DNA from: a virus
DNA: 22,645 bases
IMG/VR virus record: IMGVR_UViG_3300044996_000130
Coordinates: 1 to 22,645 of that record
Reading direction: 5' to 3' (one strand)
Shown piece after piece: positions 1-21,261 of this stretch (positions are counted from its first letter, which is position 1; each line of letters starts with the position of its first letter). The notes under the pieces were generated by a model that was not told the DNA's origin, searched no databases, and worked only from the letters and a program-made list of their open reading frames with translations. Position numbers and translations under genes: made by a program.

Positions 1-3000
1 TTACTGTTCAACCGTGGTGCTTGGCTGTATAACGCACGGGCTAGCATGGTATACTGATTAATCGCCCGCTTGCCCAGGTTCGACGCGGCTTCCGTAAAGT
101 CCCCACCCATCATCAACGCTCTAAGGCCCAACGTCGCCGCGTTATCAGTGTCGTGTGCCTCCTGCATAATACCGAAGTCCACGCGCTGTTCCTTGCGTGC
201 TCTCTCCAACGCTGCCATTAACGTTGGATTACTCAGCGGCTTGTCCAACGCGATGTTCACCAGGTCGTGCATCGCCTGGCCCCACAGCTTATACCCAAGC
301 CCCAGCCTACCTGTGTCCTGGGTCAACTGTGGCATCAGCGTAATAATCGGGTGCGTAGCCGTTACCACCATCGACGACACGTTGAAGCCGAGATAATACG
401 AGAACAATATCCGCTTCATCAGCGACATCTCGCCCTCTGGTGGATTGATTACGTTAGCGAAATGTTCACGCGCCTTTTTCAATGCCTCGCTGTTCGCCCG
501 CAACTCCCGGTCATGCAGCGCCACAGCGAACTCCCCGGTCACCTGGCGTTTCGCCAGAGTAGTCGCAACCGCGTGCACATGCCACAGAAAGTCCCGTGCC
601 AGGTTAATCGTCTCTCTACCTACACGTGACTTCTTCTCCGACATGAACCCTTCCGTCCCCTTCGACGTTATATCATTAAGCGTCGCTTCCATTGGGACAT
701 ACGCAAACACCTTATCCAAGTCCGCCTGCGACAGGCCGGAGCCAAGCAACTTATGCTGCATCGCTGCGGTCTCAATCTCCTGTAACGTCCGCACGAAGTC
801 AGGGTGCAGGGCCAATCGCTCATCACCCCTTAACGTCTTATCCCAAAAGTTGAACTTATCTCTCGCTACGCCCGACTTCGCCGACATTTTGTCTGCCCAC
901 TCGCTCGCCTCTTGCTTGGTGTCAAACGCCGCCAAGCCGGATTCCTCCCACGTGCCCTTCTTCTTCGGGTCGACATACGCCACATAATACCGGCCCCGTC
1001 GTTGCTCGGACACCCACCAGTCATTCCCTGCGTTGCGTTTCTCAAACTCACGTATTGGCTTGTGCTGTGCGAGCAACGCATCCGCCGCGGCTTGTATGCC
1101 CGGCACACCACTCATGCGTAATGCCATCACTTGCGCTGCGCCAGCCGCCGCAGTCGTCGGGTCATCTGACAATGCCGCCCACGTCGCATCGTTTAACTGC
1201 CGTGCCACCGACTTTGCATCCTCTACCAACATCGCCGGGTTGGCCGTGAGCAACTTCTGCGCTACGGGATGCTGTGCCGACTCTTTCAGCGACCTCACAA
1301 TCATCGGGAACATGTCCTTCACCACTGCCCGCATGTTGTGCCGGAAGTTAATCGCCTGTGCGTGTGCCTCCGGCGACGTAATTCCTTGTGCTGTAAGTGC
1401 TCGACGCCACTCATCATCGCTATACGCCCGCCGTGCCGTCTGCTCCCGCAACACCACTGAGTTGAATGCTTCCGTCAGCTCAGGATGCGTTAACACATAC
1501 TTCAACCCTGAGCCATCGACATTCAGCACATCCCGCTTGAGTAAACGTGTCGACACTAACATTGGCTTAAGTATCCTATCCGCGAAGTCGTTTGCCAGTG
1601 GCCGGAACGACCTCACCACCTCGAACGGCGCACGTAAGATCGGATACAACTGCCCCAGCTGTGCGGAAGCCATGAACTTCTTAAACAGCCACGGGATTTG
1701 TATACCATAATCCGCCTCAGTCTTTGGGTCATCCTTCAACCCAAGCCACGTAGCCGCGTGCTCAATAGCGGACTTGATGCCAGGTAAGCTAGACGGCGAT
1801 GGTGACGGCGATGGTGCTCCCGGCACACCACGGTTTTTCAAGATCAACTTATAAATATCGCTTAGGGCATTCACCATCGGCCCCGTTGCATGTGCCCTGG
1901 CCGCAAGATACGCCGCAGGATCGCTTGCTTGCAACGTCACCATCTGTTTATACGCTGCGTCGATAACATCACGGCTTGCAAGCACATCCTTGATGTTCTT
2001 CCGTATCTCGCTCGCACGTTGCACAAACACGCCATCCTGCGCCAACTCTGGCCGGGTAGCCGCTATCCGTTCCGCTAAAATATCCGCCGTATCCAGCAAG
2101 GCTACATACAACCCTTGTAGGAAATCTTGTGTATGTTGATCCGCGAATGTGTAAATATCCTTAATATACACCCTTGACGGACTCGCCAGCCCAAGTGAAG
2201 CCATGCCAACTATGTCCGACATGAACTCATTCGGGTCTTGCTTTCCTACGTCAACACGGTGCTGAATCAAACGCTGTAACCTTGGGTCAGCGTTTCTAAC
2301 CGCATTTGGAAATATGGAGTTAAACCACAACTTTAACAAAGCACCACGTTGCTCTGGCTCCATTGCAGCTGCGTGGGCATTCGCACGCCTTGCCGCAAGT
2401 ACGAACTTTATGCTACTTGTCGCTATGTCATCCGCTTTCCGCGTAACCGCGTGCCACAACTCGTGACCGAGGGTGTGCACCAACTTAGCTGCCCAATGCG
2501 TCCGCGCGTAGTGTAACTGGTTCATACCAACAATGGCTCGTGTTGTACCTCCGACTTCGCGACTGTACAACTCGCCAGCTATGTCGGACTGAAGCAACGT
2601 CATTATTTTCGTGTTGCTTATATCCTTAAAGGCAAACGTGACTTTAGCCGCCACGTCTGCATAGAACCCTGCTGTGGCTTCATCCGACCCATACTTCAAG
2701 AACGTTTCACGGAACCACTCACGCGCACCGATGGCCAGCTCAAGGTTCGACACCGGCGCCTCTTTTAGGTTTGTTAGGTAATCATACGCAAACTGGACTC
2801 CTGCGTCTAGCTGCTGTTGCGTTGGCGCACCTGGGGTTGCGTTACCTGTAATCACATCCCAACCACGTGGCGCCGTGCTTGCCTCTGGTCCTGGCTCACG
2901 CACCGGCAACTCCGCATTCGGGTTCTTCTTGTTCAACCAATCCTCAAACATCGCGTTCATGCGTTCGGTAAGAGCCTCGATATACCGATTGCGAACGTTC

Positions 3001-6000
3001 TTCCAGTTGTTGTCGGCCTTCGTCTGTATCTGCTCTGGTGTATCGCCAGGCTTACCGGTCTCGATGCCCAGGCGCTGCAACGCTGCGAGCTTATTCTCCG
3101 GCTCGGTCACAGTCAAACCATCCCGAGTATACCGCAGTATCAACTCGCCAGACTTCATCAGCGACAGAAGCCCGTTGAACACCCCTTGTTGCTTCGCCAA
3201 GTCTTCTTTCGGCGTGACCTTGGCCTTACGTGCATACTCCTCAGCAGGAATCTTGTGTGGCGCCCACGTGCTTTCCACGTCTGCCTTAAGCGTCTTCCGC
3301 AACTCCCGGCCACCAAACGCGTTCCACTGTTCCAGCGTTAGCTCGCTGTTAAAGTTCTCCAAGAACCAATTCCGGGCCGCGTCGACCTTTGCGGCCTGTG
3401 CCGGGTCAGGGCTGACAAAGTCAGCGAGGCTATTCAAGTTAAGCTCATTCGGCATGTTCTCCAGCTCACCGCCGAACAGCTCCGTCTCATGCTTCGCCGC
3501 CAGGTCCGCTAGGTACACAGTCCGTGCCACCAACTGCCAGAATTCATTCGGTGCCTCCTCGACCCTCTGTTTGATATACCGCATTGCCGCCGCACGTTCG
3601 ATAGATGGCCCAGTCTCACCCTCTTTCCTACTAGCGACCAGGTAGTCGTGCAAGGCATTCTGCCACCGTTCCGGCTTCTCCAGCTCCGCGGCACGCTGAA
3701 GGAGGCTGAAGTACATATCGTCGTCAATCAGCCCCACATCAGCCTTAGCGCCACGATACCTCACCTCGCCAGCGAGCACCTCGCCGAGTCCCGCCATCAC
3801 TGCAGGGCCATGCGGTTGTGCCTCTAGCGCACGCAACTTCTCCATCGTGGCTACCTTGTCCGCCTCGCTAACTTTAGGCAGTTTCAACTGCTGTTCGGCG
3901 AGGACGTTCAACCCTTCAATGGCCTTTGTAAGCTGTGCCAGCCGATACATCGCCGCACGATACACCCGGTCCATCGCTTCTGCCGCCGGTAGCACATTCA
4001 TCAACTCCTCAAGGTGCTTGAACGGCGAATACTCATCCGAGAGAAGCTTGGTGTACAACGGATGCCGTCCCACCGGCATATCCTTGGCTTTCTTCTTTAA
4101 CGGATCATACCTCCGCTCGAAGACTGTTAACGCCTTGTCTAACGCCTTGATCAGCACGTCAGTCATCTCAGTGACCTTGTTCAAACGCACCGTAATAGGC
4201 AACTCAGCCACTGGGCCGGTTTGCTCCAGCGTCAACAACTCCGCATCAATATACGGTCGCACCTGTTGTAGCATTAGCTCCGCACCACCGACCGGCGCCG
4301 TGAGTGCATTCGCAGACTCCTCACGCCACTTGGGCGTCATTGCCGTCCGTAGCTCAGCCTCCGTGTGAATCTGCTCACCTGCCGGCTTACCCTGATTATA
4401 CTGCGCCAGTATCCTCGTGACCTCCTTGTTATACGCTTCCCACTGTTTCCCGCTGGCTAGTTCCCGCTTACCTTGCAACTCAATCGCACGCTGGTGCAGT
4501 GCCTCTGGTGTTAACACCGGCTTCTCAAAGGTCGGCCACCGCATCTCGTCCTCGTTCGCAACACGAAATTTCTTTGTTGCCGTGTCAAGCACCATGTTCG
4601 TCGGGGATTCGCCAACGTACACCTGCGAGAATTGCGGGGTAACAGGCTTGATATGTACAGAATGCAGGTCATCAAGCAAGTACATCCCCACCCCAAACAC
4701 GGGGTGGTCTATCACTTGCAACTTGTTCCCAGTAGCCGCAGCTGCGCGCTGTCGCAACGTGTCCGCCGTTATCTTCGGCTTTACAAACCCAGGTGTTTTC
4801 GCCTCGACTTCAGTAGCTGGCCCGAATCTCCCGTATTGATGTCTAAGCACTATATTCGTAGGCTCACCACCAACATATACCTGCGATAAAGTCGGGTTGA
4901 TCTTGCGTGTGGTCGTTGCTTTTACATCCTTACGCAGAAACATCCCAAAGCCGAACACCTTGTGCCTCGGCTGTACAACCTGTTCGCCAGCTACCTTTGC
5001 CGCACGTTGGTGTAACAGCTCAAGTGTCACCTTCGGCGGCGTATAGCCAGCAACTGCGGCGTCTGCGGCGGTCGCTTCACGGTACTGTTGTGTCACCGTA
5101 TCACGCACCAAGTTCGTTGGCTCTTGGCCAACGTACACCTGGGAGAAGTTCGGGTCGACCTTAATCTTCCGTAGGTCTTCTAAGCTATACTGCCCAGCTC
5201 CAAAAATCGGGTGGTCGGTGGTTATTGGCTTCTCACCGACAGCCGCGGTAGCTGCTGCGGCACTCTTGCGCGTCTTCTTGTCAAGAGCTTCCAGCCTCGC
5301 TGCCAGGTTCTTCAATGGCGTGCCGACATTATGCACTACCCAGGCATACGCGGCTTCCATAACGTTGGGCTGTTTCTCGACAACCGGAAATATGTCATCG
5401 GCCTTGAGTTTGCGCTCCATCTCAATGTCTGCCAACACCTTCCGCATTGCCTCCGGCACGGGCTTCTTCGCTACCGGCTCCGGTGCAGGCACAGGAGTCG
5501 CCGCCACAGCTGCCTTTACCCTCGCAATCCACTCAGCCAGATTCGCTGATGGCCGTGGGAATGTCTCCACGCTCCCGCCTGGCGCGTTGACCACGTCATG
5601 TCCTGCGATACGTGTCGTATAACCCGGACCGTATAGCGCATCACCGACAGCTGCTGACGGCTCCAGACTCCCTTCTGGCGGGTTGGTAGACGCCATCACG
5701 CCAGCCGGTTGGACACTCTCCACCTTCCCACTAAACATATTCAACGCAGCGTTGATCAGGTCCAAATCGCTGAACGGTATCTTTCCCACGACCTTCACCG
5801 TCCCGTCAGGCTGTCGCTCCAGAACCTTCTGTATCACCAACTCTTCCACCGTCGCCGTATCGAGCTTTGAGGCATCCAACGGCTCTTTAGCTCGCGACAG
5901 CGCCACGAGTGTCGCTGACTGTGCCTTCATCTTACCCAGTTCCGCTGTCAGCGTCGCCGCCTTGGCCTTGCCGGTTGCGATAATATCCTCAACCGTAGCC

Positions 6001-6983
6001 TCGACATCCACAATCTGCACCTTGTCTTGTGGTTTATTCACCACCGGCACACCCGGCGCAGCAGGCACCTTCGCTGGCTGGCTCTGAGAGACAAAGTTCC
6101 TTATTTCCTCCATTGCCTCACTGATGTCCCGCATCGCACGTGCCTCTACGTCCGACCGCGGCTGTAACCGCTTGCCCTGTGCATCCACGATCTTCGGTCC
6201 CCTCACAATACCAGGCAAATGCAACATGCTAAACGCCACCTGTGGCGCAATCAACTCCGCGAGATGCTGGTTGTTCATCTCATACGGTGCACCAGTCGTC
6301 AACAGTGACGTAGCCTCCTGTGCGAGGAACTGATTCGCAATGACACCCACGGCCTCACCACCCGCGCCAGCCAAACGCTCCAACTGGCCACCGAGTGGCA
6401 CCACAAAAGGCTTAGCGTGTGGCACTGTCCGCCCGACTAACTGTTCGCCAGCTTTGCCGACCACGTCCAACGGCTTGTAGAGCTGTTGTATGCCCTTTGC
6501 AACAAGGCCACGCCCACCACGAGCAAATGCTGGGAATGCCGCACCGGCAACGCCTGACACCACACCCGCCGTAGGGCTTCCACTCTCTCCATATGCGTGC
6601 AGTGCCATGTCTCCCGCTGCCAGTCCAATGCCCACTGGCCCAAGTCCCATCAACGCCATCTCTGGCAACATGCGTGGTAGGCCTTCACCAACCCCACGGC
6701 CAATTTCCTCACCCATCGGGCCACCGATCTTCTCGCCAAGCCAGCCAAACGCCCGCCCAGCAGGCTCTTTCAGTGGCGCCAATTGCTTCTCTATCCACCA
6801 GTCAAGCTGGCGCAGCTTGTTATCCGTCAACCCCTGTGAGAATGCCTGTGTACCCAACTGCTTATTCGCCCACTGTGAGAACTGTGGCAGCGACTGCTGT
6901 GCGAAAAACGGCACTTTCTCGCTGAGGTCTTTGTGTAAATCCGATACCGTGCCGTATGGTAGGATTTCAGTCAAATCAGGCAT
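1..6983 (-). CDS. Giant polyvalent-type virion protein, 3' end beyond the window
   Basis: One frame starts at ATG 6983 and is uninterrupted to the left edge: 2327 codons, no stop. An 18-nt gap without Shine-Dalgarno precedes it. Order: residues 103-150 hydrophobic, Gly/Ala-rich (LMGLGPVGIGLAAG), possibly membrane-active; 591-845 three ~84-residue tandem repeats; 850-1450 mostly helical; HELWH at 1507-1511 with candidate third ligand E1586 in NEFMSD (metalloprotease-like); PSPSPS linker at 1724-1731; then WWVSEQRRGRYYVAYVD from 1989 and YLGFNVSS at 2197-2204, phrases I associate with large last-position proteins of podoviruses. Location matches T7 gp16, N4-type giant virion proteins and the multidomain 'polyvalent proteins' thought to be ejected with phage DNA. 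No lytic transglycosylase or RNA polymerase motif was recognised. Confidence 0.8.
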   Translation of the reverse strand, partial: MPDLTEILPYGTVSDLHKDLSEKVPFFAQQSLPQFSQWANKQLGTQAFSQGLTDNKLRQLDWWIEKQLAPLKEPAGRAFGWLGEKIGGPMGEEIGRGVGEGLPRMLPEMALMGLGPVGIGLAAGDMALHAYGESGSPTAGVVSGVAGAAFPAFARGGRGLVAKGIQQLYKPLDVVGKAGEQLVGRTVPHAKPFVVPLGGQLERLAGAGGEAVGVIANQFLAQEATSLLTTGAPYEMNNQHLAELIAPQVAFSMLHLPGIVRGPKIVDAQGKRLQPRSDVEARAMRDISEAMEEIRNFVSQSQPAKVPAAPGVPVVNKPQDKVQIVDVEATVEDIIATGKAKAATLTAELGKMKAQSATLVALSRAKEPLDASKLDTATVEELVIQKVLERQPDGTVKVVGKIPFSDLDLINAALNMFSGKVESVQPAGVMASTNPPEGSLEPSAAVGDALYGPGYTTRIAGHDVVNAPGGSVETFPRPSANLAEWIARVKAAVAATPVPAPEPVAKKPVPEAMRKVLADIEMERKLKADDIFPVVEKQPNVMEAAYAWVVHNVGTPLKNLAARLEALDKKTRKSAAAATAAVGEKPITTDHPIFGAGQYSLEDLRKIKVDPNFSQVYVGQEPTNLVRDTVTQQYREATAADAAVAGYTPPKVTLELLHQRAAKVAGEQVVQPRHKVFGFGMFLRKDVKATTTRKINPTLSQVYVGGEPTNIVLRHQYGRFGPATEVEAKTPGFVKPKITADTLRQRAAAATGNKLQVIDHPVFGVGMYLLDDLHSVHIKPVTPQFSQVYVGESPTNMVLDTATKKFRVANEDEMRWPTFEKPVLTPEALHQRAIELQGKRELASGKQWEAYNKEVTRILAQYNQGKPAGEQIHTEAELRTAMTPKWREESANALTAPVGGAELMLQQVRPYIDAELLTLEQTGPVAELPITVRLNKVTEMTDVLIKALDKALTVFERRYDPLKKKAKDMPVGRHPLYTKLLSDEYSPFKHLEELMNVLPAAEAMDRVYRAAMYRLAQLTKAIEGLNVLAEQQLKLPKVSEADKVATMEKLRALEAQPHGPAVMAGLGEVLAGEVRYRGAKADVGLIDDDMYFSLLQRAAELEKPERWQNALHDYLVASRKEGETGPSIERAAAMRYIKQRVEEAPNEFWQLVARTVYLADLAAKHETELFGGELENMPNELNLNSLADFVSPDPAQAAKVDAARNWFLENFNSELTLEQWNAFGGRELRKTLKADVESTWAPHKIPAEEYARKAKVTPKEDLAKQQGVFNGLLSLMKSGELILRYTRDGLTVTEPENKLAALQRLGIETGKPGDTPEQIQTKADNNWKNVRNRYIEALTERMNAMFEDWLNKKNPNAELPVREPGPEASTAPRGWDVITGNATPGAPTQQQLDAGVQFAYDYLTNLKEAPVSNLELAIGAREWFRETFLKYGSDEATAGFYADVAAKVTFAFKDISNTKIMTLLQSDIAGELYSREVGGTTRAIVGMNQLHYARTHWAAKLVHTLGHELWHAVTRKADDIATSSIKFVLAARRANAHAAAMEPEQRGALLKLWFNSIFPNAVRNADPRLQRLIQHRVDVGKQDPNEFMSDIVGMASLGLASPSRVYIKDIYTFADQHTQDFLQGLYVALLDTADILAERIAATRPELAQDGVFVQRASEIRKNIKDVLASRDVIDAAYKQMVTLQASDPAAYLAARAHATGPMVNALSDIYKLILKNRGVPGAPSPSPSPSSLPGIKSAIEHAATWLGLKDDPKTEADYGIQIPWLFKKFMASAQLGQLYPILRAPFEVVRSFRPLANDFADRILKPMLVSTRLLKRDVLNVDGSGLKYVLTHPELTEAFNSVVLREQTARRAYSDDEWRRALTAQGITSPEAHAQAINFRHNMRAVVKDMFPMIVRSLKESAQHPVAQKLLTANPAMLVEDAKSVARQLNDATWAALSDDPTTAAAGAAQVMALRMSGVPGIQAAADALLAQHKPIREFEKRNAGNDWWVSEQRRGRYYVAYVDPKKKGTWEESGLAAFDTKQEASEWADKMSAKSGVARDKFNFWDKTLRGDERLALHPDFVRTLQEIETAAMQHKLLGSGLSQADLDKVFAYVPMEATLNDITSKGTEGFMSEKKSRVGRETINLARDFLWHVHAVATTLAKRQVTGEFAVALHDRELRANSEALKKAREHFANVINPPEGEMSLMKRILFSYYLGFNVSSMVVTATHPIITLMPQLTQDTGRLGLGYKLWGQAMHDLVNIALDKPLSNPTLMAALERARKEQRVDFGIMQEAHDTDNAATLGLRALMMGGDFTEAASNLGKRAINQYTMLARALYSQAPRLNS
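1792..1815 (-). repeat. 12-bp perfect tandem duplication encoding PSPSPS linker
   Basis: On the plus strand gacggcgatggt occurs twice in direct succession. On the coding strand this gives the Ser-Pro repeat at residues 1724-1731 of the giant protein, a likely flexible linker between the metalloprotease-like part and the C-terminal part. Confidence 0.85.
2451..2465 (-). other. HExxH zinc-protease-like site in giant protein
   Basis: Coding-strand CAC GAG TTG TGG CAC reads HELWH (residues 1507-1511), within the local context LVHTLGHELWHAVTRKADD. The preceding residues are hydrophobic, as expected for a zincin active-site helix, and a Glu in NEFMSD follows 75 residues later. Confidence 0.6.
4449..4706 (-). 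repeat. Giant-protein tandem repeat 3 (residues 760 to about 845)
   Basis: Unit begins HPVFGVGMYLLDDL, contains FSQVYVGESPTNMV and ends with LTPEALHQRAIELQG. The end is approximate, because the fourth unit is not recognisable. Confidence 0.78.
4707..4964 (-). repeat. Giant-protein tandem repeat 2 (residues 674-759)
   Basis: Unit begins HKVFGFGMFLRKDV, contains LSQVYVGGEPTNIV and ends with ITADTLRQRAAAATG. It is 86 residues long. Confidence 0.8.
4965..5213 (-). repeat. Giant-protein tandem repeat 1 (residues 591-673)
   Basis: Unit begins HPIFGAGQYSLEDL, contains FSQVYVGQEPTNLV and ends with a helical VTLELLHQRAAKVAG. It is 83 residues long and abuts repeat 2. Confidence 0.8.
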
Positions 6984-7001: not shown

Positions 7002-7403
7002 TTAAAGAACCGGACCGCTCTGCGTTTTCAGTTGGCGAAGGAGAAGCTCTAACTGCGGCGGAAAGCCTGTACCGCTGTGGACGTCATCAAGTTGGTTAAG
7101 TCCAATGCCCTTTACGCCTTGGTATGAGCTTAGCTGCGGTGACAGCCCACCGGCAATCGCGCTGGTAACGCCCTCCATTGCTCTGTTCTTGATCAAGTCA
7201 AGTATCCCGACCTTTTGCTGCGGCTGCGTGCCACTCTGGCCTATATTCGCCTGTCGGAGTGGCCCACTGGTCGCTGCTGCTGAGCCGGCCTGTGCGGCGG
7301 ACATCCCAGTGCCACCACTTGTCTTACCAAATACTGACTTTGCTGCTTGTCCGACAGAGCTTTCGGCAAACCCCTGACTCGCGGCTGACATTAACTGTTG
7401 CAT
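7002..7403 (-). CDS. Small virion-associated protein with GILDLIK motif
   Basis: This 133 aa protein starts at ATG 7403, one base after the previous stop (TAATATG). It begins MQQLMSAASQGFAESSVGQA, has a Gly/Ser/Ala-rich stretch, and carries TQPQQKVGILDLIKNRAM with GILDLIK at 66-72. A Gly/Ser/Leu region follows and the protein ends in a helix ELLLRQLKTQSGPVL. The motif and its preceding TQP are shared with the 77 aa neighbour, so the two are probably related in part. Position between the 428 aa protein and the giant protein suggests it is part of, or an adaptor to, the ejected protein set. No known family is recognised. Confidence 0.62.
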   Translation of the reverse strand: MQQLMSAASQGFAESSVGQAAKSVFGKTSGGTGMSAAQAGSAAATSGPLRQANIGQSGTQPQQKVGILDLIKNRAMEGVTSAIAGGLSPQLSSYQGVKGIGLNQLDDVHSGTGFPPQLELLLRQLKTQSGPVL

Positions 7404-7404
7404 A

Positions 7405-7638
7405 TTAGCTTTGTTTGATTAGGTCGAGTATACCAGCCTTTGGCTGTGTGCTTGCGGCGTCAAGGCCACTATGGCCAAGGAAGCCACCGATTGCCTCACG
7501 TGGGTCTTGTTGTGGCATGAAGTTACTCTTGCCGACTGGACCTTGCCCAGGCATACCGGGAATGTGCGTCGGCTTGTTCGCCGCGTCCATTGCCGACGAG
7601 ATCATTTCGGATATGACGACACCTGCTAGTGCTTGCAT
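7405..7638 (-). CDS. Small virion-associated protein with GILDLIK tail
   Basis: This 77 aa protein starts at ATG 7638, one base after the upstream TAA (TAACATG). A GTG at 7665 would also be in frame but overlaps the previous gene by 26 nt and seems less likely. The product begins with a short hydrophobic-amphipathic helix (MQALAGVVISEMISSAMDAA), continues with Gly/Pro-rich linker sequence and ends in TQPKAGILDLIKQS. The motif GILDLIK at residues 69-75 recurs in the next protein. No function is recognised. Placement within the ejection gene block suggests a minor internal protein. Confidence 0.62.
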   Translation of the reverse strand: MQALAGVVISEMISSAMDAANKPTHIPGMPGQGPVGKSNFMPQQDPREAIGGFLGHSGLDAASTQPKAGILDLIKQS

Positions 7639-7639
7639 G

Positions 7640-8926
7640 TTAACGAACTGTTGGGTTGAATCCACGCCACCACTCTGGCCGTAAGCGTTTCCGACGCTCT
7701 TTCTCCAGGATGTCCAAGTCCTCTGGCCCGTAGATCGGACGTAGGTCCATGCCTTTGTATTGGTTCGACAACGTCAACGCGTCGATCACGTTGGTAGGCT
7801 GTGATGCAAGTGGTGGTGGCACCTGTGGTATCGTAGCCTGTGGTGGCGCCTCACGAGCCGGCTTACGTGGCCGCTGCGATGGTGCCGATGATGGCTGCCA
7901 CGGCGCAGGCGCCACTGGATTGCGCGGTGGTGGTGGCGTCTGTGTGCTGAAAGCATTAGACAGTATCGGCTTGAGCAGCTGTTGCACAATCGAACTGCTA
8001 AACTGTCCCATCGGAGAAACCGCTGGTGGCGCCGAAATGCCGGACACAGTCGGTGGCTGTGGCCGCTCACTCTCAAGGCTGTAGTTCCGTGGAGCACCTT
8101 GTGGGGCACCACCCGGCGGTGCAACTCCCGGCGCACCACCTGGGCCACCTGCGCCACCGTGTCCGAAATACCTACCAACCGCATCGTTGAACGCCTTAAG
8201 CGCCTCTGGTGACGTCTCGTTCATCTCACCTGGCCCCTGACCCGGTGCGGCCTGTCCGCTCATGAGCGTCTGTACCGCCCTAGCAAGCATAGTTTGTGTG
8301 GCCTTATACGCAGGCGACATCATATCACTACCCATCGGTATCATTGCCCCAGCGACTTTCGCCAGCGTGTCAAACTGCTGGAGCCGTGTTGCTTCCTCGA
8401 TGTGCTGCTGTTGCGCCTTGCCAGTCGCTGTGTCCTGAGTTATCTGCTTAATACGTGGCTGTCGTGTCTCACGTTCCGTGGTAGCTTTCTCCGTCGTTTC
8501 CCCAGTCTGTGCTTCGATCAGCCCGGACTCTTTGTTGAGCTTATTAACCTGACCTGGCGTCAACTCACTTAGATTGCGTGCCTGTGCTATATTCAAGCCC
8601 GCGGCTGCCAGCCGTGACAGAAACTCCCCTTGTTTCTCTATAGGCATAAACTCCATCGCCAGGCGCATTGTGTCCGACTGTGCGCCCAACAGTGCCTTAT
8701 GGCTCTCGATAAGTGCATTAGTCGCATTTGCCTGTGCCTGACTTTGCGCCCCGGCACCACGTGCCTGTGCGCCACGGGCTTCACTTTCTGCCACCTCTGC
8801 ACTCAACAACTGCCCAAAGCGTGACTTCGGCGCCACAATGCCCAACACGTCTCTCAACGACACCGGGATATGAACCCCGTACTGTCCCATTTGTAACCCA
8901 CTCGGCCAACCACCATCCATAGCCAT
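7640..8926 (-). CDS. Internal virion protein, coiled-coil plus Pro/Gly-rich
   Basis: This 428 aa protein starts at ATG 8926, one base after the previous stop (TAATATG). Residues about 40-190 are Ala/Gln/Glu-rich and probably helical coiled coil (ARGAQARGAGAQSQAQANAT; NALIESHKALLGAQSDTMR). Residues about 250-375 are Pro/Gly-rich and disordered (GGAGGPGGAPGVAPPGG; PQATIPQVPPPLASQPT), and a charged C-terminus includes EDLDILEKERRKRLRPEWW. Position and composition fit an internal or ejection protein, comparable in location to T7 gp15, but no family motif is recognised. The stop at 7640-7642 is followed after one base by the next ATG (TAACATG). Confidence 0.65.
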   Translation of the reverse strand: MAMDGGWPSGLQMGQYGVHIPVSLRDVLGIVAPKSRFGQLLSAEVAESEARGAQARGAGAQSQAQANATNALIESHKALLGAQSDTMRLAMEFMPIEKQGEFLSRLAAAGLNIAQARNLSELTPGQVNKLNKESGLIEAQTGETTEKATTERETRQPRIKQITQDTATGKAQQQHIEEATRLQQFDTLAKVAGAMIPMGSDMMSPAYKATQTMLARAVQTLMSGQAAPGQGPGEMNETSPEALKAFNDAVGRYFGHGGAGGPGGAPGVAPPGGAPQGAPRNYSLESERPQPPTVSGISAPPAVSPMGQFSSSIVQQLLKPILSNAFSTQTPPPPRNPVAPAPWQPSSAPSQRPRKPAREAPPQATIPQVPPPLASQPTNVIDALTLSNQYKGMDLRPIYGPEDLDILEKERRKRLRPEWWRGFNPTVR

Positions 8927-8927
8927 A

Positions 8928-10067
8928 TTACCTCACAAGTTTTCCAAGTGCACTCCACGCATGAAGCCACATGTGACAATACGGTGCGAGCATTGCACTC
9001 ATTTTGTCGGTTCTTTCCCCGTAGCACCAGTCCGCATACCGCAAGAACGGTCGGATTAGCACATTGTTTACGAACTTCCGCACTCGCTTCGACGCCCGCA
9101 TGGCCGGCACAAGCCAATAAGCCATTGCTGTATACCCCTTCTCCCTTGCTGGGGTCCAGTACTCCACCCGCGCAAGCTCCATTGTCCACGGCAACGCGCC
9201 GTTTAGGGCTGTGTTGAAGATGAAGCAGCATGTAATACCACCCTGCCAGCCAGCCTGGTTGCCCTTGCCCACCATGTTTTCCGAGGACGACTCGTGCGTA
9301 GTGCCGCGGAGCATACTTGCGAGCTGCAACAGCTTCGCATTTATGTCCTTGGTTGTATCCACGCCTCTTGCCGCACCCAGGCCACGTTCTGCTACGCCAC
9401 CAACAAGTTGTTGCAGGCCACCGGAGGCAGCTACGCCAGTCTGCGTACGTGCCTGCTCGATGCCAGCCATTGACTTTGCGGCATCCCCAACCAGCGAAGC
9501 GTCTTGCAGCCGTGCCTGGCGCACCTCTTGGCTGCGGTTACGTGCCAGCTGATCTGCCGTCACACCCTGCATAATCCCCGTCCTGGCATCGGCGCCACGG
9601 ACTGCATCCGGCCCACTTGCTACCTGTGATAGGGCATCTGCCGCACGGAGGTTATACGCATTGGCGGTTGAGGTTTCATACGCAGTTGAAAATGGGTCCT
9701 GACTTGCGATGTTGGCCAGTGGCACTTTCCCCTGATAGTTACCTGGGTCGATATTTGCCCATGACTCCAACGTGGAGAAACCCGGCTGTGCCTGCGGAGT
9801 ATCCTGCAACAAGCTGCTATACCTCGCGTTCTGCTGTGATGCCAACGCTGGGTTAATGCCCGACGAGGCAGCATTCTGGTCAATCAGCGAGGCGATGCCG
9901 TCTGGCACACCAAACGACTTTACCGATGCCCCACCACCCCGGCGGTCGAATGCCGTGTCTGTCTCTCCAGCCCCAAAGGCCACCACTCCCGCCGCATGTG
10001 GATACCGCTTTGCCGTCGCAGCCACCACACGAGCTGCCGTTGGTAAGAACTCTTGCCAGGTCTTCAT
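8928..10067 (-). CDS. Internal virion or ejection protein, gp14-like
   Basis: This 379 aa protein starts at ATG 10067, overlapping the upstream TGA (ATGA). An in-frame start at 10091 would extend into the previous gene and is not preferred. The N-terminal half is Ala/Gln/Ser-rich and helical, with an IASLIDQNAASSGINPALA region. The last ~105 residues are distinctive: GGITCCFIFNTALNGALPW, EKGYTAMAYWLVPAMRASK and PFLRYADWCYGERTDKM. Such a CC...ALxG...GY.xMAxWLVPxM C-terminus occurs in internal or tail proteins of many podoviruses, placed right after the nozzle gene. It is likely packed in the virion and ejected with DNA. The family link is by recollection of pattern. Confidence 0.68.
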   Translation of the reverse strand: MKTWQEFLPTAARVVAATAKRYPHAAGVVAFGAGETDTAFDRRGGGASVKSFGVPDGIASLIDQNAASSGINPALASQQNARYSSLLQDTPQAQPGFSTLESWANIDPGNYQGKVPLANIASQDPFSTAYETSTANAYNLRAADALSQVASGPDAVRGADARTGIMQGVTADQLARNRSQEVRQARLQDASLVGDAAKSMAGIEQARTQTGVAASGGLQQLVGGVAERGLGAARGVDTTKDINAKLLQLASMLRGTTHESSSENMVGKGNQAGWQGGITCCFIFNTALNGALPWTMELARVEYWTPAREKGYTAMAYWLVPAMRASKRVRKFVNNVLIRPFLRYADWCYGERTDKMSAMLAPYCHMWLHAWSALGKLVR

Positions 10068-10570
10068 AAGGTTTTGGTGAACACTACGCACGCCGGCGTG
10101 AAGCCGAGACGCCGCCGAAACAGCCGCATGGCCGCACCGTTGAGCCGGCGACTCTGTGCATGTAGCTCGACGTATCCCATACGCCTAGCCCACATTTCGT
10201 GATACGCCATTGCGGCGCGACTGATGTGCGGGTCTTTGTTGTTTGAATATGCAGCATAGATTAGTAACGTGCGTTTTTGCGGGAACTGGGTGTCGTCCTG
10301 GAGGACGGTGTAGCCTAACGGTTTTTGGTTCTTTGACTCGAAGATTAGCACCACGCCCCACTTTGGGCCGTTGTCAACCACCCGCATAAGGCGCTTGAGG
10401 TATTCGTCCCACGGCACGTCGCCTCGTGCGCCGGTGGGGTTACACAACACCTGCCAACCTTCGTGGATTAGGGCGGATTCGTCCAGCAACGCCTGCACCT
10501 CCAGCAGTGGCCGGATGAAATACAACTGTCGCTCAAACTCGAATGGAATGCGTAGACTATCTTGCGGCAT
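10064..10570 (-). CDS. GNAT-like protein at the gp13 position
   Basis: This 168 aa protein starts at ATG 10570, 14 nt inside the nozzle gene. The C-terminal half resembles a GNAT acetyltransferase fold: a strand PLGYTVLQDD at about 84-93, LLIYAAYS at 102-109, a helix AMAYHEMWARRMG and a terminal RLNGAAMRLFRRRLGFTP at 142-159. The last is the usual helix that stacks on the C-terminal strand. However, the region where GNAT enzymes carry the Q/RxxGxG/A acetyl-CoA loop reads SNNKDPHISRAA, so catalytic activity is doubtful. In T7-like phages a small gene occupies this position between nozzle and gp14-like genes. It could be an assembly helper with a degenerate GNAT fold. Confidence 0.6.
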   Translation of the reverse strand: MPQDSLRIPFEFERQLYFIRPLLEVQALLDESALIHEGWQVLCNPTGARGDVPWDEYLKRLMRVVDNGPKWGVVLIFESKNQKPLGYTVLQDDTQFPQKRTLLIYAAYSNNKDPHISRAAMAYHEMWARRMGYVELHAQSRRLNGAAMRLFRRRLGFTPACVVFTKTL

Positions 10571-12491
10571 CTGTGATCCTTACAATTTCCTCGAAGCCGG
10601 ACCAAACGAAGTTCCGCACGGCGCCGACCGGGCTGAATTTGTATCGTATGACCTTACCAGCAACAGGCTGGAAAGTCAGGAACTTCGTGCCAAGCGTTTG
10701 GGTCCAGGTGCCGACCTTGACCCACGAGACGGTGGTGTCCACGCTCTCCCGAGCGGAGATGTAGACGTCGATTGACAGAGCAGAAAGTGCGGTGGCGTTG
10801 ATAGTTAGGCCACTGATTTCCTTCACCACATGGGCGGATTCGTATAGCCTGTCGCCGGTCTCGATAACCATCGGCGACTGGGAGATCACGGTCAAATCCG
10901 TAGTGGCCGCCTCAGTGATTATCTTCCCATCACTTGTGCCATAGGCAAAAACAAGACTGTCGGCGGTGCGCTCAATAGCACCATTTATAGCCGTTTGCGC
11001 GGAGTTGGTTCCCACAAGGGCAGTCACTGGCGCAGCCCGCCGCTGCCACCGACAGAAAGCTGAGATGTTTTCCACCGAGCGAATGCTCCAGGTGGAGTTG
11101 CGGTAGTTATACGCTACGGCTTTGTCATACGCGCCGCTGGAGGCTACGGAGACATACACCCACACGACCTCGAAGTTCAGTCGGTCGACATACGCATAGG
11201 TCTTCTGTGCCAGGTCGCTATCGAGGTTTAAGTCGCTAAAGAAATACGACCGGATACCTTGGCCGATGGACTCCGGGCCTTGCCCTTTGTAGACATAGAA
11301 ATCCGCGTGGTGGACATCGACCCACGCTACGGCGTCATCGAGAGCTGCGGTGGCGTGCAACAGGCCATTGCCGTAGTCACGGATGAGTGGAGCTACGTTC
11401 ACCACCCGAGGCAGGCCGGTGTAGTTCATGGCGTAGATGCAACTGGAGGTGAAGATCAGTAAGGCTTCACGAACGCCTGTGAGTGTTCGCATCTTATACG
11501 GCTGGATGCCAGTAATGCCGGTGATCACATCATCAGGCCGTTGGTAGTCGGCACAGGTATACGAATCTGCCTCGTTGCCCACCCGCGGCAGCCAGTCAGC
11601 GTAGTCGTAGAGATTGCTCCACATCACCTTGTGGAGGTCGGTGATCCCGTTAAACGTCGGTGCGCCAACCACCACATGATCGTAGAACACCGCCACGTAA
11701 CGCCCAGCAGGAATGTTCATGAGTGTCACGCTCAACTGCCCAAGTGGCCAGTCGTCAGTATTCGGCACGCTGGCCACGGTGTTTGTGGCTCGGACTACGA
11801 TGTAGCCTGGCTTCACCTCGGTCACCTTCCCGGTAAGGGTGTAGCTCTCTGTCTTACTCACGAGCAGGTAATACCGTATTGTGGCTCCAACGGTGAAAAA
11901 CCACTCATTCGCGGTGTGGTAGATACGATAATATGAGTCCGTCGTCCACGTGAATGGCGAACTAAGGTCACCTTGCGGCACTCCCCACTGATCTTGCCAG
12001 GCGTCTCGGGCTGTGATTGGCCCGGAACCGAGGAAGTCAAACGGATTCGGCTTTGACCAACAGACGCGGTGGTCGAACAGCTCCTTAGCCGCTGCGCCAT
12101 TGGTGTATCTCACCCTGTCACTCGGGCGGGTGTAGAATAGAACGTCGTTATGCTTATGCGAGGACCACCGGGAGGTAGAGGTCAGGTAGCTCGTGATCTC
12201 CGTTGCGCCAGACAGCTTCACCTGCATCAACTCCTGCTTGGTCAGTGCGACCCAAATGCCATAGTCGGTATCGCCGCACGGCAGATTCGCCAGCACCTCC
12301 ACCGGCGCACCAGAGATCGTAACCACGTTCTTCTTCACCGGCACCTGGCTCAAGCCAAGATACGTACGCACATTAAACAGCGACCTCCACTGTTCCGGCT
12401 TAAGGAGAAACGGTCTCGCGTCCGCATCCATGCCACCGAACATGTCGAAATGCGAGACGCGCTGCTTGCCGCGTGTGTCTTGGTCTATCAC
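10557..12491 (-). CDS. Tail nozzle (hub) protein, tail tubular B / P22 gp10-like
   Basis: This 644 aa protein starts at GTG 12491, overlapping the fibre stop (GTGA). The beginning (FDMFGGMDADARPFLLKPEQ, then LFNVRTYLGL) matches the usual opening of podoviral nozzle proteins, which dock on the adaptor and form the tail tube end. Motifs such as KVMWSNLYDYADWLPRVG (about 288-305), MRTLTGVREALLIFTSSCIY and AVAYNYRNSTWSIRSVENIS are typical of the beta-propeller hub of this family. Residues 184-245 are a beta domain also present in the major capsid protein. The length is close to that usual for the family (T7 gp12 is near 800, P22 gp10 near 470). The end overlaps the next gene by 14 nt. Confidence 0.8.
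   Translation of the reverse strand: MIDQDTRGKQRVSHFDMFGGMDADARPFLLKPEQWRSLFNVRTYLGLSQVPVKKNVVTISGAPVEVLANLPCGDTDYGIWVALTKQELMQVKLSGATEITSYLTSTSRWSSHKHNDVLFYTRPSDRVRYTNGAAAKELFDHRVCWSKPNPFDFLGSGPITARDAWQDQWGVPQGDLSSPFTWTTDSYYRIYHTANEWFFTVGATIRYYLLVSKTESYTLTGKVTEVKPGYIVVRATNTVASVPNTDDWPLGQLSVTLMNIPAGRYVAVFYDHVVVGAPTFNGITDLHKVMWSNLYDYADWLPRVGNEADSYTCADYQRPDDVITGITGIQPYKMRTLTGVREALLIFTSSCIYAMNYTGLPRVVNVAPLIRDYGNGLLHATAALDDAVAWVDVHHADFYVYKGQGPESIGQGIRSYFFSDLNLDSDLAQKTYAYVDRLNFEVVWVYVSVASSGAYDKAVAYNYRNSTWSIRSVENISAFCRWQRRAAPVTALVGTNSAQTAINGAIERTADSLVFAYGTSDGKIITEAATTDLTVISQSPMVIETGDRLYESAHVVKEISGLTINATALSALSIDVYISARESVDTTVSWVKVGTWTQTLGTKFLTFQPVAGKVIRYKFSPVGAVRNFVWSGFEEIVRITDAAR
11757..11942 (-). 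other. Beta domain in nozzle protein shared with major capsid protein
   Basis: Residues 184-245: DSYYRIYHTANEWFFTVGAT, then IRYYLLVSK, then GYIVVRATNTVASVPN. The common pattern is SYxRxY...FxVGxxIxY...VSK...G.V..V...YIxVRATxTVxSVxN. Confidence 0.7.
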
Positions 12492-14509: not shown

Positions 14510-14836
14510 TTACAGGCCTTTTAACTGGAAGTACATACCGTTAGGTGTCGCAGGCACGGAGATGTCCACCGGTGCGCTTGCACCACCAATAGTGTCGTAC
14601 GCAAGCACCGAGCCGCCGTCAGAGGCTGGCAAAGCAAGGTACGCATACGAACCGTAACGCACCGCCGAGGCTTCTTCGATTAGTTGCAAACCGAAAGCTG
14701 TTGCCAGCATCCGGTTTGTTGTTCCGCCCCACGAGCCGCCGTGAACCTCTACAAGCTTCTGGCGCTTAACGCCGTCGGCTTCGTAGATATTACGGCTAGC
14801 TACAACCCGAACGTTTGCTCCAGTTAAGTCGGCCAT
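14510..14836 (-). CDS. Probable head decoration protein, copy 2 (paralogue)
   Basis: This 108 aa protein starts at ATG 14836, four bases after the stop of copy 1 (TAAACCTATG). It aligns along its whole length with copy 1, with about 40% identical positions counted by eye. Conserved blocks are LTxANVR, VEVxGGxWGGxTNxM, AFGLQxIEEA, AYxAxP and TPxGMYxxxKG. The variable positions are concentrated near residues 15-30 and 60-95. A tandem duplication with divergence suggests two decoration proteins, or one decoration and one specialised for other sites such as vertices or adhesion. Function is inferred. Confidence 0.72.
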   Translation of the reverse strand: MADLTGANVRVVASRNIYEADGVKRQKLVEVHGGSWGGTTNRMLATAFGLQLIEEASAVRYGSYAYLALPASDGGSVLAYDTIGGASAPVDISVPATPNGMYFQLKGL

Positions 14837-14844
14837 AGGTTTAG
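14833..14844 (-). promoter_or_regulatory. Start context CTAAACCTATGG of decoration copy 2
   Basis: The stop of copy 1 is embedded (TAA, then ACCT, then ATG). An AAAGG lies about 12 nt before the ATG, too far to be a convincing Shine-Dalgarno site. Confidence 0.5.
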
Positions 14845-15170
14845 TAGCCTTTCACCGTGATGTACATGCCACTTGGCGTGGTGTCGAGTGCCACATCTCC
14901 GACTGCACTTGAGGCCCCTGTGGAGTCAAACAAGTTCAGCCGTGTTCCGGCGCTGATGGGTGCCGCGACATACGCGTGCCCACCATAGATGCCAGGCGTT
15001 GCTTCTTCGATCACTTGGAGACCGAAGGCAGAGGCCGGCATGGTGTTCGTATCACCACCCCAGGTACCGCCGAAGACTTCCACCCGGCGCACCTTGCGGC
15101 GCTTCCCGGTGACGCTTCCCTCGGTCCACGAGGCGATTAAACGAACGTTAGCACTAGTAAGTGCAGCCAT
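14841..15170 (-). CDS. Probable head decoration protein, copy 1
   Basis: This 109 aa protein starts at ATG 15170, three bases after the capsid stop (TAACCTATG). It is compact, Gly-rich and likely beta-structured, with VEVFGGTWGGDTNTM, ASAFGLQVIEEA and a C-terminal PSGMYITVKGY. It is clearly paralogous to the next gene. Location immediately after the major capsid gene and ~11 kDa size match the decoration or head-stabilising proteins of many phages. The role is inferred from context, since no named family is recognised. The joint spacing to the capsid stop suggests translation coupled to the capsid and therefore high, near-stoichiometric output. Confidence 0.72.
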   Translation of the reverse strand: MAALTSANVRLIASWTEGSVTGKRRKVRRVEVFGGTWGGDTNTMPASAFGLQVIEEATPGIYGGHAYVAAPISAGTRLNLFDSTGASSAVGDVALDTTPSGMYITVKGY

Positions 15171-15178
15171 AGGTTAGG
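15167..15178 (-). promoter_or_regulatory. Start context CCTAACCTATGG of decoration copy 1
   Basis: The capsid TAA and the decoration ATG lie 3 nt apart and no Shine-Dalgarno sequence is seen. The same CCTATGG context precedes the next two genes. Confidence 0.5.
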
Positions 15179-16532
15179 GAGTGTACGACGTCACGTTCTG
15201 GATGAACATGTGGGACTCCGGGAACCAGACTTCCAGCCCGGTCTCGGTGAACCACTCGTCCTTCCGGTAATCGGCGTCATTCGGTTGGCGGTTGGCCAGC
15301 AACGTGGTGTCACGGCCTACCAGGGGCCGGTAACGCAAGTTGCGGACGTCGAGGTACAGCGCAGCGAAGCGAAGGTTCGCATTCTGCGTGAACAGCGGGT
15401 GGGTCTTGTAGTAGATCGTGCCAAACGGGGTAAGATGGCCGACCACGTTCATACCGTAGGTGTCTTTGAACGGGATGTCAGTCATCAGCACCGCCTTGGA
15501 GCGGTACATTTGGTTGATCACCTTGAGGAACCCGCTGCCACACAGCACGAGCTTCTCGTTGCTGGTGTTGTTCGTGTATCGGAACAGACGTTCGAGGTAG
15601 GTGTCGTAGGTGTCCTCGTCCATCGTTCCGCCGGAGTTGGTGATAATGCGCTTATCGTCGTCACTGTCACTCGTCGCGGTCACGGTGCGGTAGTCACCCG
15701 CTTCCCATCGCTGGAGGTGGTAGATAACCCCGCCAGTGGTGGTAACAGGCAATCCTGCGCCGGTGGTAGGAGCAGCATCTCCCGCGGGCACGTATTTGTT
15801 CTTCGTGCCAAACAGGAAGGCTTTTTCCAACTCCTCCATGTGCGTCACCGCGTGCTCTTTCGCCTTGTCCTGGTAAGGACCGCTCTCGTCGAACTTGAGC
15901 GGAGTCTTCAGTGCCGTGCCGGTGAAGCTAAACGGCGTCCGGAAGATTTGCGTGTAGTTCGAAAACTCCACGGGCGAGTTGTAGATTTCAGACGACAGGT
16001 CGACCACGCCTTGGTTGAACGCAGAGCCGATGATGAGCACTTCACTCGGAGCCGCGATGCAGGTGGTAGCGTTGTTCGTCACGGAGGTGACTGTACCAGT
16101 GGCCCGGACGGTGATGTAGTCATCGCCGGTGGTGTTAACGGCGCTAACGACGCCAATCACATCCTTGGAGACCGCGTGATACTTGATCACGTGGCCAACA
16201 CGGAAGATTGAGCCGTCGGCGACATACACCCGGTAGCTTGTGCCATCGGTCCAGTTGGAGCCAGTGGCAAAGTTCGCGCCACCGCTCGTCGTGAGTGGGC
16301 CGGCTGTTACACCGCCGCCAAGTCCGTTGTCAATCGGTAGCGTAGTCTGCGTGACGTGCCGCTTTTCCCAGTGAGAGAACTGCGGATCGTTGGTTTCCTC
16401 GCCGTCCATGATGGACAGCAAGCCAGTAAGAACGGCGGTGCCGTTCGGATACTGATACTGTACGCTGCGGCGGATGTTCTTGAACCGCGTTGCATCGTAT
16501 GTCTCAGTCGAAACAAGGCCAAGAATAGCCAT
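15174..16532 (-). CDS. Major capsid protein (HK97-fold inferred, SU10-like)
   Basis: This 452 aa protein starts at ATG 16532 behind an A-rich leader (CAAACACAGAAAGACAAC) with no Shine-Dalgarno site. It follows the scaffold gene. Features resembling the SU10/DUF5309-type capsid group are an early NGTAVLTGLLSIMDGEETND, then NSPVEFSNYTQIFRTPFSF (about 185-203), AKEHAVTHMEELEKAFLFG (about 224-242) and NEKLVLCGSGFLKVINQMY in the C-terminal half. Residues 98-154 form a beta-type inserted domain (SYRVYVADGSIFRVG...YITVRATGTVTSV) that also occurs in the nozzle protein. This protein would form the icosahedral shell. The HK97 fold is inferred from family resemblance, not demonstrated. Its TAA is followed after 3 nt by the first decoration gene. 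Confidence 0.85.
   Translation of the reverse strand: MAILGLVSTETYDATRFKNIRRSVQYQYPNGTAVLTGLLSIMDGEETNDPQFSHWEKRHVTQTTLPIDNGLGGGVTAGPLTTSGGANFATGSNWTDGTSYRVYVADGSIFRVGHVIKYHAVSKDVIGVVSAVNTTGDDYITVRATGTVTSVTNNATTCIAAPSEVLIIGSAFNQGVVDLSSEIYNSPVEFSNYTQIFRTPFSFTGTALKTPLKFDESGPYQDKAKEHAVTHMEELEKAFLFGTKNKYVPAGDAAPTTGAGLPVTTTGGVIYHLQRWEAGDYRTVTATSDSDDDKRIITNSGGTMDEDTYDTYLERLFRYTNNTSNEKLVLCGSGFLKVINQMYRSKAVLMTDIPFKDTYGMNVVGHLTPFGTIYYKTHPLFTQNANLRFAALYLDVRNLRYRPLVGRDTTLLANRQPNDADYRKDEWFTETGLEVWFPESHMFIQNVTSYTP
16071..16241 (-). other. Beta domain in major capsid protein shared with nozzle protein
   Basis: Residues 98-154: SYRVYVADGSIFRVGHVIKY, then AVSK, then DDYITVRATGTVTSV. Matches nozzle residues 184-245 in order and spacing. 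Confidence 0.7.
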
Positions 16533-19646: not shown

Positions 19647-20216
19647 CTAGAAATCGCAGAAGGCCAGGCGTGTGCCATAGACATGCTGGATGTCCAACGG
19701 GAGTTTATCGAGGTACGCTTTCAGCTCATGGAAGTCGCTGTGGCACCTCGGGTCGATGTCGTCGACGTTCGGGTGGTAGTCGTGCCACACGATGGTCCCG
19801 CCTGGTGGGGTGCTTACCATGAAGTGAAACACGGCTTTCCGAGTGTCGGCCTCCACGCCAGCTCGGGTGTGGTCGCCGTCGATGTAGATGAAGGTGGTGT
19901 CATACGGAATGATGAAGTCGTTGCCGACGCGATGCAGGCTGACGTTACGTAAACCGATAGCCTCCTCGCAGCAGGCGACGTTTGTCTCGTGGTATGTCGA
20001 CTGGCCAGCAGGGAGGTCGACGGCATAGACAGTCCGGTGGGGGAATTCCGTAGCGAGGTACTTCGTCGTGCGGCCCTTCCAGACACCGATCTCAACAATC
20101 GAGCCGATGGACTGGCTGGCTTTCCACACGAGCCAGGCGACCTCGTGAGGCATGGTGCCCCATTCTGGCCCGAAGCCGCAACCGTACGCTGAGATTGGGT
20201 ATTCAACCGTGCGCAT
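19647..20216 (-). CDS. Class I SAM-dependent methyltransferase
   Basis: This 189 aa protein starts at ATG 20216, 14 nt inside the end of the glycosyltransferase gene. It shows the Rossmann SAM site IVEIGVWKGRTTKYLA (motif I, from residue 40), an acidic strand end YAVDLPAG at about 64-71, FIYIDGDHT at 109-117 and GGTIVWHDYH at 139-148. The pattern IDGDH plus W/HDY is that of the Methyltransf_24 (CmcI/TylF-like, metal-assisted O-methyltransferase) group often found in glycan biosynthesis loci. It probably O-methylates a sugar or other small substrate. The tight overlap with the GT9-like gene supports action on the same product. The substrate and target (host surface or virion) are unknown. Confidence 0.8.
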   Translation of the reverse strand: MRTVEYPISAYGCGFGPEWGTMPHEVAWLVWKASQSIGSIVEIGVWKGRTTKYLATEFPHRTVYAVDLPAGQSTYHETNVACCEEAIGLRNVSLHRVGNDFIIPYDTTFIYIDGDHTRAGVEADTRKAVFHFMVSTPPGGTIVWHDYHPNVDDIDPRCHSDFHELKAYLDKLPLDIQHVYGTRLAFCDF

Positions 20217-21261
20217 ATTCAGGGTCGTTAATTAGGCTTAGCCAGCGGTCACTCCAGAAGGGGTAGACGTCGCCACCGAAGGCCGCTTCGAGGGAGTAGA
20301 TTGACAGCCGCGGAACAAGGCAGCTTTCACCTTCTTGGTGGAGGTGGACGTTCTGTGGATACAGCCACTCTTCCTCGATTGTGAAGGTCCGGCGCAGCGT
20401 GGGGAGCACGACTCTCGATGCGTCTGGCATGTTTATGAGCACTATACAACGCGCTCCAGTGGCAACCGCCACGTGCATCGGGCCACTCATGATGCCCACG
20501 AACCAGGAGCAGGTCTGCATGAACTCGATGAGGTTGCTCACGGTCGTGGCGGGGAAGTATGTCACGCCGGGAATGTTGCTCGACTTCTGCCCGACCTCGA
20601 AGAATTCAAACTCAGGGTGTGCGGCCACAAACTTCGCCAGCATTGCGAGGGTGTGGTCATACACCTCTCTTGGGTGCGGGTGCCACTGCTTTTGATGTTC
20701 GTGATGCTGACCGTTTGGCTCGAAGTGGAAGCAAACGCGGTTCTTACGCTTGGGAGCTTTGACGACCAAGTGGCCAACGGGCTTGACCGGCACAGGGATT
20801 CCGAAGGCCCGGCAGTATTGCTGGATAACATGGCCGTTACCACAGTCAAAACGCTCATACAGCAGCGGGCCATCGACGAGAAACGGCTTCCCGAGAATCC
20901 AGCCTTTGTCGTAGTGATGGGAGTTCGGGCAGTAACGCATTACCTCCTGGAAGCTTGGCGCACCGCTCCAAACCTCGATGTCGCGACCGTGCATCACGGC
21001 TTGGCCACGGACGCCTGACAGGGTCACAGAGTCGCCCAGGCCACGGGCGGCGAGGGTGAGTACCATATCTGGCAGCCAGGCTGGCGGTAACGGGCGCAAC
21101 TTCGAGGTGACGTTGGCATACGCTGAGCGGATAGCTGTTTCGATGGCGCTATCTGTCAGCTGACGTGAAAGCCGCGGCCGTTTTGGCTGTGAGCCGGCGA
21201 CGGTAGCCAGCCCTTTGTGCTCATACGGCAGCGTCTGACACGATTGCTTCTGACGTTTCAT
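20203..21261 (-). CDS. Glycosyltransferase family 9-like protein
   Basis: This 352 aa protein starts at ATG 21261, one base after the upstream TAA (TAACATG). The segment GLGDSVTLSGV at residues 74-84 resembles the N-terminal GxGD...P/G loop of family 9 (heptosyltransferase-type) GT-B enzymes. FVGIMSGPMHVAVATGARC at 254-272 closely matches the C-terminal nucleotide-sugar site of that family, with its conserved SGPxH...A.G core. A middle segment with CFHFEPNG and K/WHP (about 177-195) sits where the family usually has its linker and donor loop. It likely transfers a sugar from a nucleotide donor to a glycan or protein. The acceptor cannot be read from sequence. It overlaps the methyltransferase gene by 14 nt, suggesting a joint function such as modifying host surface glycan or a virion component. 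Confidence 0.75.
   Translation of the reverse strand: MKRQKQSCQTLPYEHKGLATVAGSQPKRPRLSRQLTDSAIETAIRSAYANVTSKLRPLPPAWLPDMVLTLAARGLGDSVTLSGVRGQAVMHGRDIEVWSGAPSFQEVMRYCPNSHHYDKGWILGKPFLVDGPLLYERFDCGNGHVIQQYCRAFGIPVPVKPVGHLVVKAPKRKNRVCFHFEPNGQHHEHQKQWHPHPREVYDHTLAMLAKFVAAHPEFEFFEVGQKSSNIPGVTYFPATTVSNLIEFMQTCSWFVGIMSGPMHVAVATGARCIVLINMPDASRVVLPTLRRTFTIEEEWLYPQNVHLHQEGESCLVPRLSIYSLEAAFGGDVYPFWSDRWLSLINDPEYAHG

Follow-up and report, generated by a model that had tools for sequence, protein, structure and literature searches.

Polyvalent proteins are inferred to enter with the injected DNA, and the zincin metallopeptidase is the commonest domain among them (Iyer et al. 2017, PMC5512222). Among the DarB-like giants of the Bcep22-like podoviruses, gp69 of podovirus JC1 has been detected as a virion protein by mass spectrometry (PMC9144972). 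Giants with a PLxRFG/tail-700 region are covered by the NCBIfam model NF032893 ("PLxRFG domain-containing protein", tail-700), for which the curated cut-off is 100 bits. In this study, we analysed a single virus record from IMG/VR (IMGVR_UViG_3300044996_000130; 22,645 bases), the whole of which is called the window below, and a giant protein encoded on it, P0001, that carries three adjacent copies of a small unit. The unit itself is undescribed, and its setting is a known kind of protein, one that is known for many undescribed domains.

All recognisable genes of the window lie on the minus strand. They encode a portal protein with matches to phrog_332/156, a major capsid protein of SU10 type (PF17236, E 1e-25), further head proteins, proteins of tail-fibre and tail-tubular-like type, and several small proteins whose genes lie directly ahead of the giant gene. 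Portal and capsid are 23-30% identical to their counterparts in Microcystis phage Mel-JY34, Vibrio phage VS-ABTNL-3, Caulobacter phage Kuura, Desulfofustis phage LS06-2018-MD01 and Roseobacter phage CRP-810, in all five of which the structural cluster has a giant gene towards its end; the tail-tubular-like protein also matches LUZ24/PaP3-like podoviruses. Via the portal, the search for relatives was widened to 80 IMG/VR loci, plus genomes. Searching with the C-terminus of the giant and with a neighbouring protein returned only one contig, G001 (IMGVR_UViG_3300007516_000048), which encodes a giant of 2,649 aa, and its near-identical twin (IMGVR_UViG_3300007722_001116). In synteny with G001, the giant gene of the window follows the tail-tubular and internal-protein genes. 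The four small to mid-size genes immediately before it (7002..10091, minus strand) occupy the place of podovirus internal or ejection proteins, and the product of one of them (8928-10091, minus strand) shares 46% identity with its counterpart in G001. Gene content and gene order suggest that the window derives from a podovirus with its giant in the ejection-protein position.

Residues 94-193 of the major capsid protein (15174-16532, minus strand) resemble residues 182-300 of the tail-tubular-like protein (10557-12491, minus strand) with 27% identity (E 7e-5), over about 100 residues, and the capsid stretch also matches the G001 counterpart of the tail protein (38%, E 6e-6). Possibly, a single inserted domain serves in both head and tail. 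The capsid gene is followed by two adjacent tandem paralogues (14510-14836 and 14841-15170, minus strand) with 49% identity, both of which match one single G001 counterpart. The products of the two genes directly ahead of the giant gene (7002-7403 and 7405-7665, minus strand) have a motif in common, QPxxxGILDLIK / QPKAGILDLIK. The protein encoded at 10064-10570 (minus strand) appears GNAT-like by eye and has no Pfam match. Beyond the portal gene lie a Methyltransf_24 protein (19647-20216, minus strand; Pfam E 7e-9) and a weak glycosyltransferase-9 match under the cut-off (20203-21261, minus strand; E 8e-4). Within the Flavobacteriales MAG NORP27, a portal 51% identical to that of the window is encoded at 4179-6059 of NVWW01000119.1 (locus L124). 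The contig probably represents phage DNA; a search of the NORP27 genome yielded nothing of P0001.

P0001 (3..6983, minus strand) comprises 2,327 aa in the window, its C-terminus being lost at the contig end. Its N-terminal region (aa 1-280; 6144..6983, minus strand), rich in Gly and Ala and with hydrophobic stretches, is conserved in the G001 giant with 31% identity (E 1e-25) and is also matched by a further fragment, L011 (E 9e-7). An HExxH motif, HELWH (aa 1507-1511; 2451..2465, minus strand), is aligned with HEITH in G001, and NEFMSD, about 80 residues downstream, with AEFVSD. Glu 1586 of NEFMSD (2226..2228, minus strand) is a candidate third metal ligand, a role that we presume by analogy with zincins. 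HExxH with a downstream Glu, conserved with G001, is the pattern of a zincin metallopeptidase, and we refer to this region as a putative peptidase. At its end, P0001 enters a C-terminal region that resembles PLxRFG/tail-700, of which the window holds the start (3..1001, minus strand; aligned with G001 from aa 1877 onward).

Against NF032893, the G001 giant scores 109.1 bits, above the cut-off, and the giants of VS-ABTNL-3 and Mel-JY34 score 288 and 304 bits. P0001 has no match to this model, presumably because it is cut off at the contig end. Since the related G001 giant passes the cut-off, we provisionally assign P0001 to the giants of the DarB/polyvalent type, placed in a podovirus-like cluster at the position of an ejection protein. 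Along this line, it is a large protein (at least 2,327 aa) encoded together with virion genes, adjoining those for internal, tail and head proteins. P0001 is most likely a virion-borne, injected protein of the polyvalent type, packaging and injection being deduced from its relatives.

The comparison with described systems reveals likeness and difference in each case. With the PLxRFG/tail-700 giants, P0001 has in common that its G001 relative is a member of the family, and with those of Mel-JY34 and VS-ABTNL-3 the same order of HExxH and then tail; however, P0001 ends early in this region, and its repeated unit is not found in the other giants. Like the LPD polyvalent proteins of Iyer et al., it exceeds 2,000 residues, has a zincin-like motif and uncharacterised domains, and lies in a virion cluster. 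It differs from them in that no second enzymatic domain beside the HExxH region was recognised with Pfam, PHROGs or NCBIfam, and in that one uncharacterised domain is present in three adjacent copies. To the DarB-like giants it is linked by the C-termini of the Mel-JY34 and VS-ABTNL-3 proteins, which match phrog_11358 over about 750 residues and, in addition, phrog_10089 ("DarB-like antirestriction"); JC1 gp69, moreover, is likewise encoded in a virion morphogenesis module. In contrast to these giants, P0001 shows direct PHROG similarity only to phrog_11358, near its end (E 7e-5), and neither Pfam nor PHROGs detected a methylase or helicase domain in it.

The initial annotation had reported three tandem repeats of about 84 residues in the giant protein. 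They are indeed present, with the small correction that the gene bearing them lies on the minus strand: unit 1 covers aa 590-672 (4968..5216), unit 2 aa 673-755 (4719..4967) and unit 3 aa 756-842 (4458..4718), as delimited by Smith-Waterman comparison and a profile. FGxG occurs at residues 594, 677 and 763, which gives the spacings of 83 and 86 residues. The proposed order of motifs (H-x-x-FG-x-G, SQVYVGxxPTNxV, LxQRAxxxxG) recurs in each unit, except that unit 2 reads GMF...DV in place of GxY...DL. Smith-Waterman scores between the units are 151, 188 and 160, while the maximum in 500 shuffles is 45; pairwise protein identities are 38, 46 and 41%, and 24 columns are identical across the three units. 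A profile built from the three units finds exactly these copies in P0001 and no fourth.

With the same profile, a single copy emerges at the corresponding position of the G001 giant (aa 537-632, E 3.8e-9), and the twin contig has this copy as well. Outside the unit, the two giants can be aligned over aa 1-280 (31%) and aa 1423-2327 (27%) of P0001. In between, where aa 286-1425 of P0001 face aa 276-1330 of G001 (some 1,000 residues), the unit is the only detectable homology; thus, it was kept while its surroundings diverged. P0001 thus has three copies and the G001 giant one, and a search with all filters off detected no copy in 15 further giants from the wider group. Neither the array nor whole P0001 gave a tblastn match among 50,697 GenBank phages, and scans of IMG/VR and GTDB genomes with degenerate-DNA and peptide patterns, which see only copies retaining the chosen peptides and could be escaped by more distant ones, returned chance stretches only. 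Weaker candidates were rejected: the one match in a search of plasmids, in pQBR57 (E 0.3), misses the conserved motifs and has a profile score below zero, and weak profile matches in a 77-aa frame of contig G021, in a Nitrososphaera MAG (frame resembling PHA synthase) and in a Flavobacteriales MAG (frame resembling PKD repeats) were put down to chance. Homologues in other phages, expected earlier as single or multiple copies, therefore come down to a single copy in one related lineage represented by two near-identical contigs. As judged from these searches, the unit family is narrow.

Units of the window are 26-31% identical to the G001 unit and 38-46% among themselves, which suggests that the tripling took place after the two lineages split. 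One ancestral copy, followed by tripling in the lineage of the window phage, would be the simplest reading. Alternatively, the lineage of G001 could have lost copies and changed faster. At four-fold degenerate sites, units 1 and 2 agree in 6 of 20 positions, units 2 and 3 in 9 of 19, and units 1 and 3 in 15 of 22. The former two pairs are near saturation and the last is not, so that the earlier view of the units as old, rather than products of recent copying, holds for two pairs only. Units 1 and 3 look like a younger pair, or like one partly homogenised by sequence exchange.

Across all four copies, three from P0001 and one from G001, the invariant columns are H, G, G, Q, V, G, P, T, V, A, P and T; Asp, Glu, Lys, Arg, Ser and Cys are missing from this set. 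These are mostly turn or core residues with one His, which speaks against both an enzymatic function and a metal site built on cysteines; a domain with a structural or binding role would suit the set better than a catalytic one. Binding of nucleic acid, by an array that holds the phage DNA or shields it from restriction in the way put forward for DarB-like proteins, would suit the setting in a protein of the DarB-like/PLxRFG type, and a small beta-sheet domain could bind DNA. We regard this as very unlikely, however: the pI of the four copies swings through 5.5, 10.8, 5.7 and 9.2, which makes binding by charge improbable, no basic residue is invariant except the one His, and Pfam and PHROGs revealed no methylase or helicase domain in P0001.

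Unit 3 was modelled with AlphaFold2 from the four-sequence alignment and reached a pLDDT of 86.4 and a pTM of 0.71. The model shows a small β-sheet domain that closes with a long helix at residues 71-88; its strands lie at 2-5, 9-12, 21-25, 30-35, 38-45 and 51-53, and its two short helices at 15-19 and 56-59. Foldseek found no match to this model at E <= 0.001 in the PDB (best 0.7) or BFVD (best 0.19). Pfam, including its LPD families, assigned none of the four copies to a family up to E 10, PHROGs gave no match, and the PDB sequences no significant one; DING proteins (E 0.15) and an SR34 chain (E 0.033), both PDB sequence matches, are not significant and gain no support from the structure search. 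PARP proteins carry the motif FGKGIYFA, which FGxGxY resembles; this likeness was dropped because the unit is too short and its predicted strand order different. The proposal of an unrecognised, compact repeated domain thus stands, as the unit models confidently alone, has no significant match in Pfam, PHROGs or Foldseek, and possesses a single-copy homologue in another phage. Since Pfam also missed the HExxH peptidase region of P0001, the negative family searches are no proof of a new family. This insensitivity, together with profiles built from three or four sequences, would allow the unit to be a divergent member of a known small family, such as an LPD domain of polyvalent proteins, linked too weakly for profiles to see; in view of the negative Pfam, PHROG and Foldseek results, we consider such a membership unlikely.

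A tandem model of 265 residues, built from only two sequences, is of low quality (pLDDT 55.8, pTM 0.32). The elements follow one another in nearly the same order in every unit, joined by linkers of low confidence; this agrees with separate beads, though the model is too weak for proof and too poor to judge packing. Such linkers could point to units that are inert spacers or carriers of cleavage sites, with the linkers cut by the metallopeptidase of P0001 itself and the parts released after injection. The HExxH motif lies downstream of the array, and peptidases of this kind are thought to process polyvalent proteins (PMC5512222). However, the conserved blocks SQVYVGxxPT and HxxFGxG lie inside the folded domain and not in the linkers, and spacers have no need of 24 columns identical in three units; we take this explanation to be quite unlikely.

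We prefer to see in the unit a binding or spacer domain. It is most likely lineage-specific, tandemly amplified and non-catalytic, with a changeable copy number, and this variation would resemble that of accessory binding repeats. The three units would be tandem copies of a small, independently folding domain between the N-terminal segment and the metallopeptidase, produced by duplication within the lineage of the window phage. As with its DarB-like/PLxRFG counterparts in other short-tailed phages, the giant would probably reside in the head and enter the cell along with the DNA. The unit would then most likely hold the injected protein to a partner, whether the envelope of the host, one of its proteins or a further internal protein of the phage, and the array would raise avidity and serve as a flexible spacer. 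Taken as a whole, a new small domain with a non-enzymatic binding or spacer role in an injected giant of the polyvalent type has, in our judgement, about an even chance of being correct. That the unit founds a genuinely new small domain family, perhaps with a new fold, and acts as a tandem docking module of the injected giant, with a copy number adjusted to the host, is a tentative suggestion that we hold to be somewhat improbable.

Undescribed domains abound in the giant virion proteins that phages inject, and the middle regions of these proteins for the most part defy alignment from one phage to another. A domain that not only survives but also increases in number within such an otherwise unalignable middle marks a part that is under selection, and the unit offers a small, expressible target for learning what these giants do in the cell.
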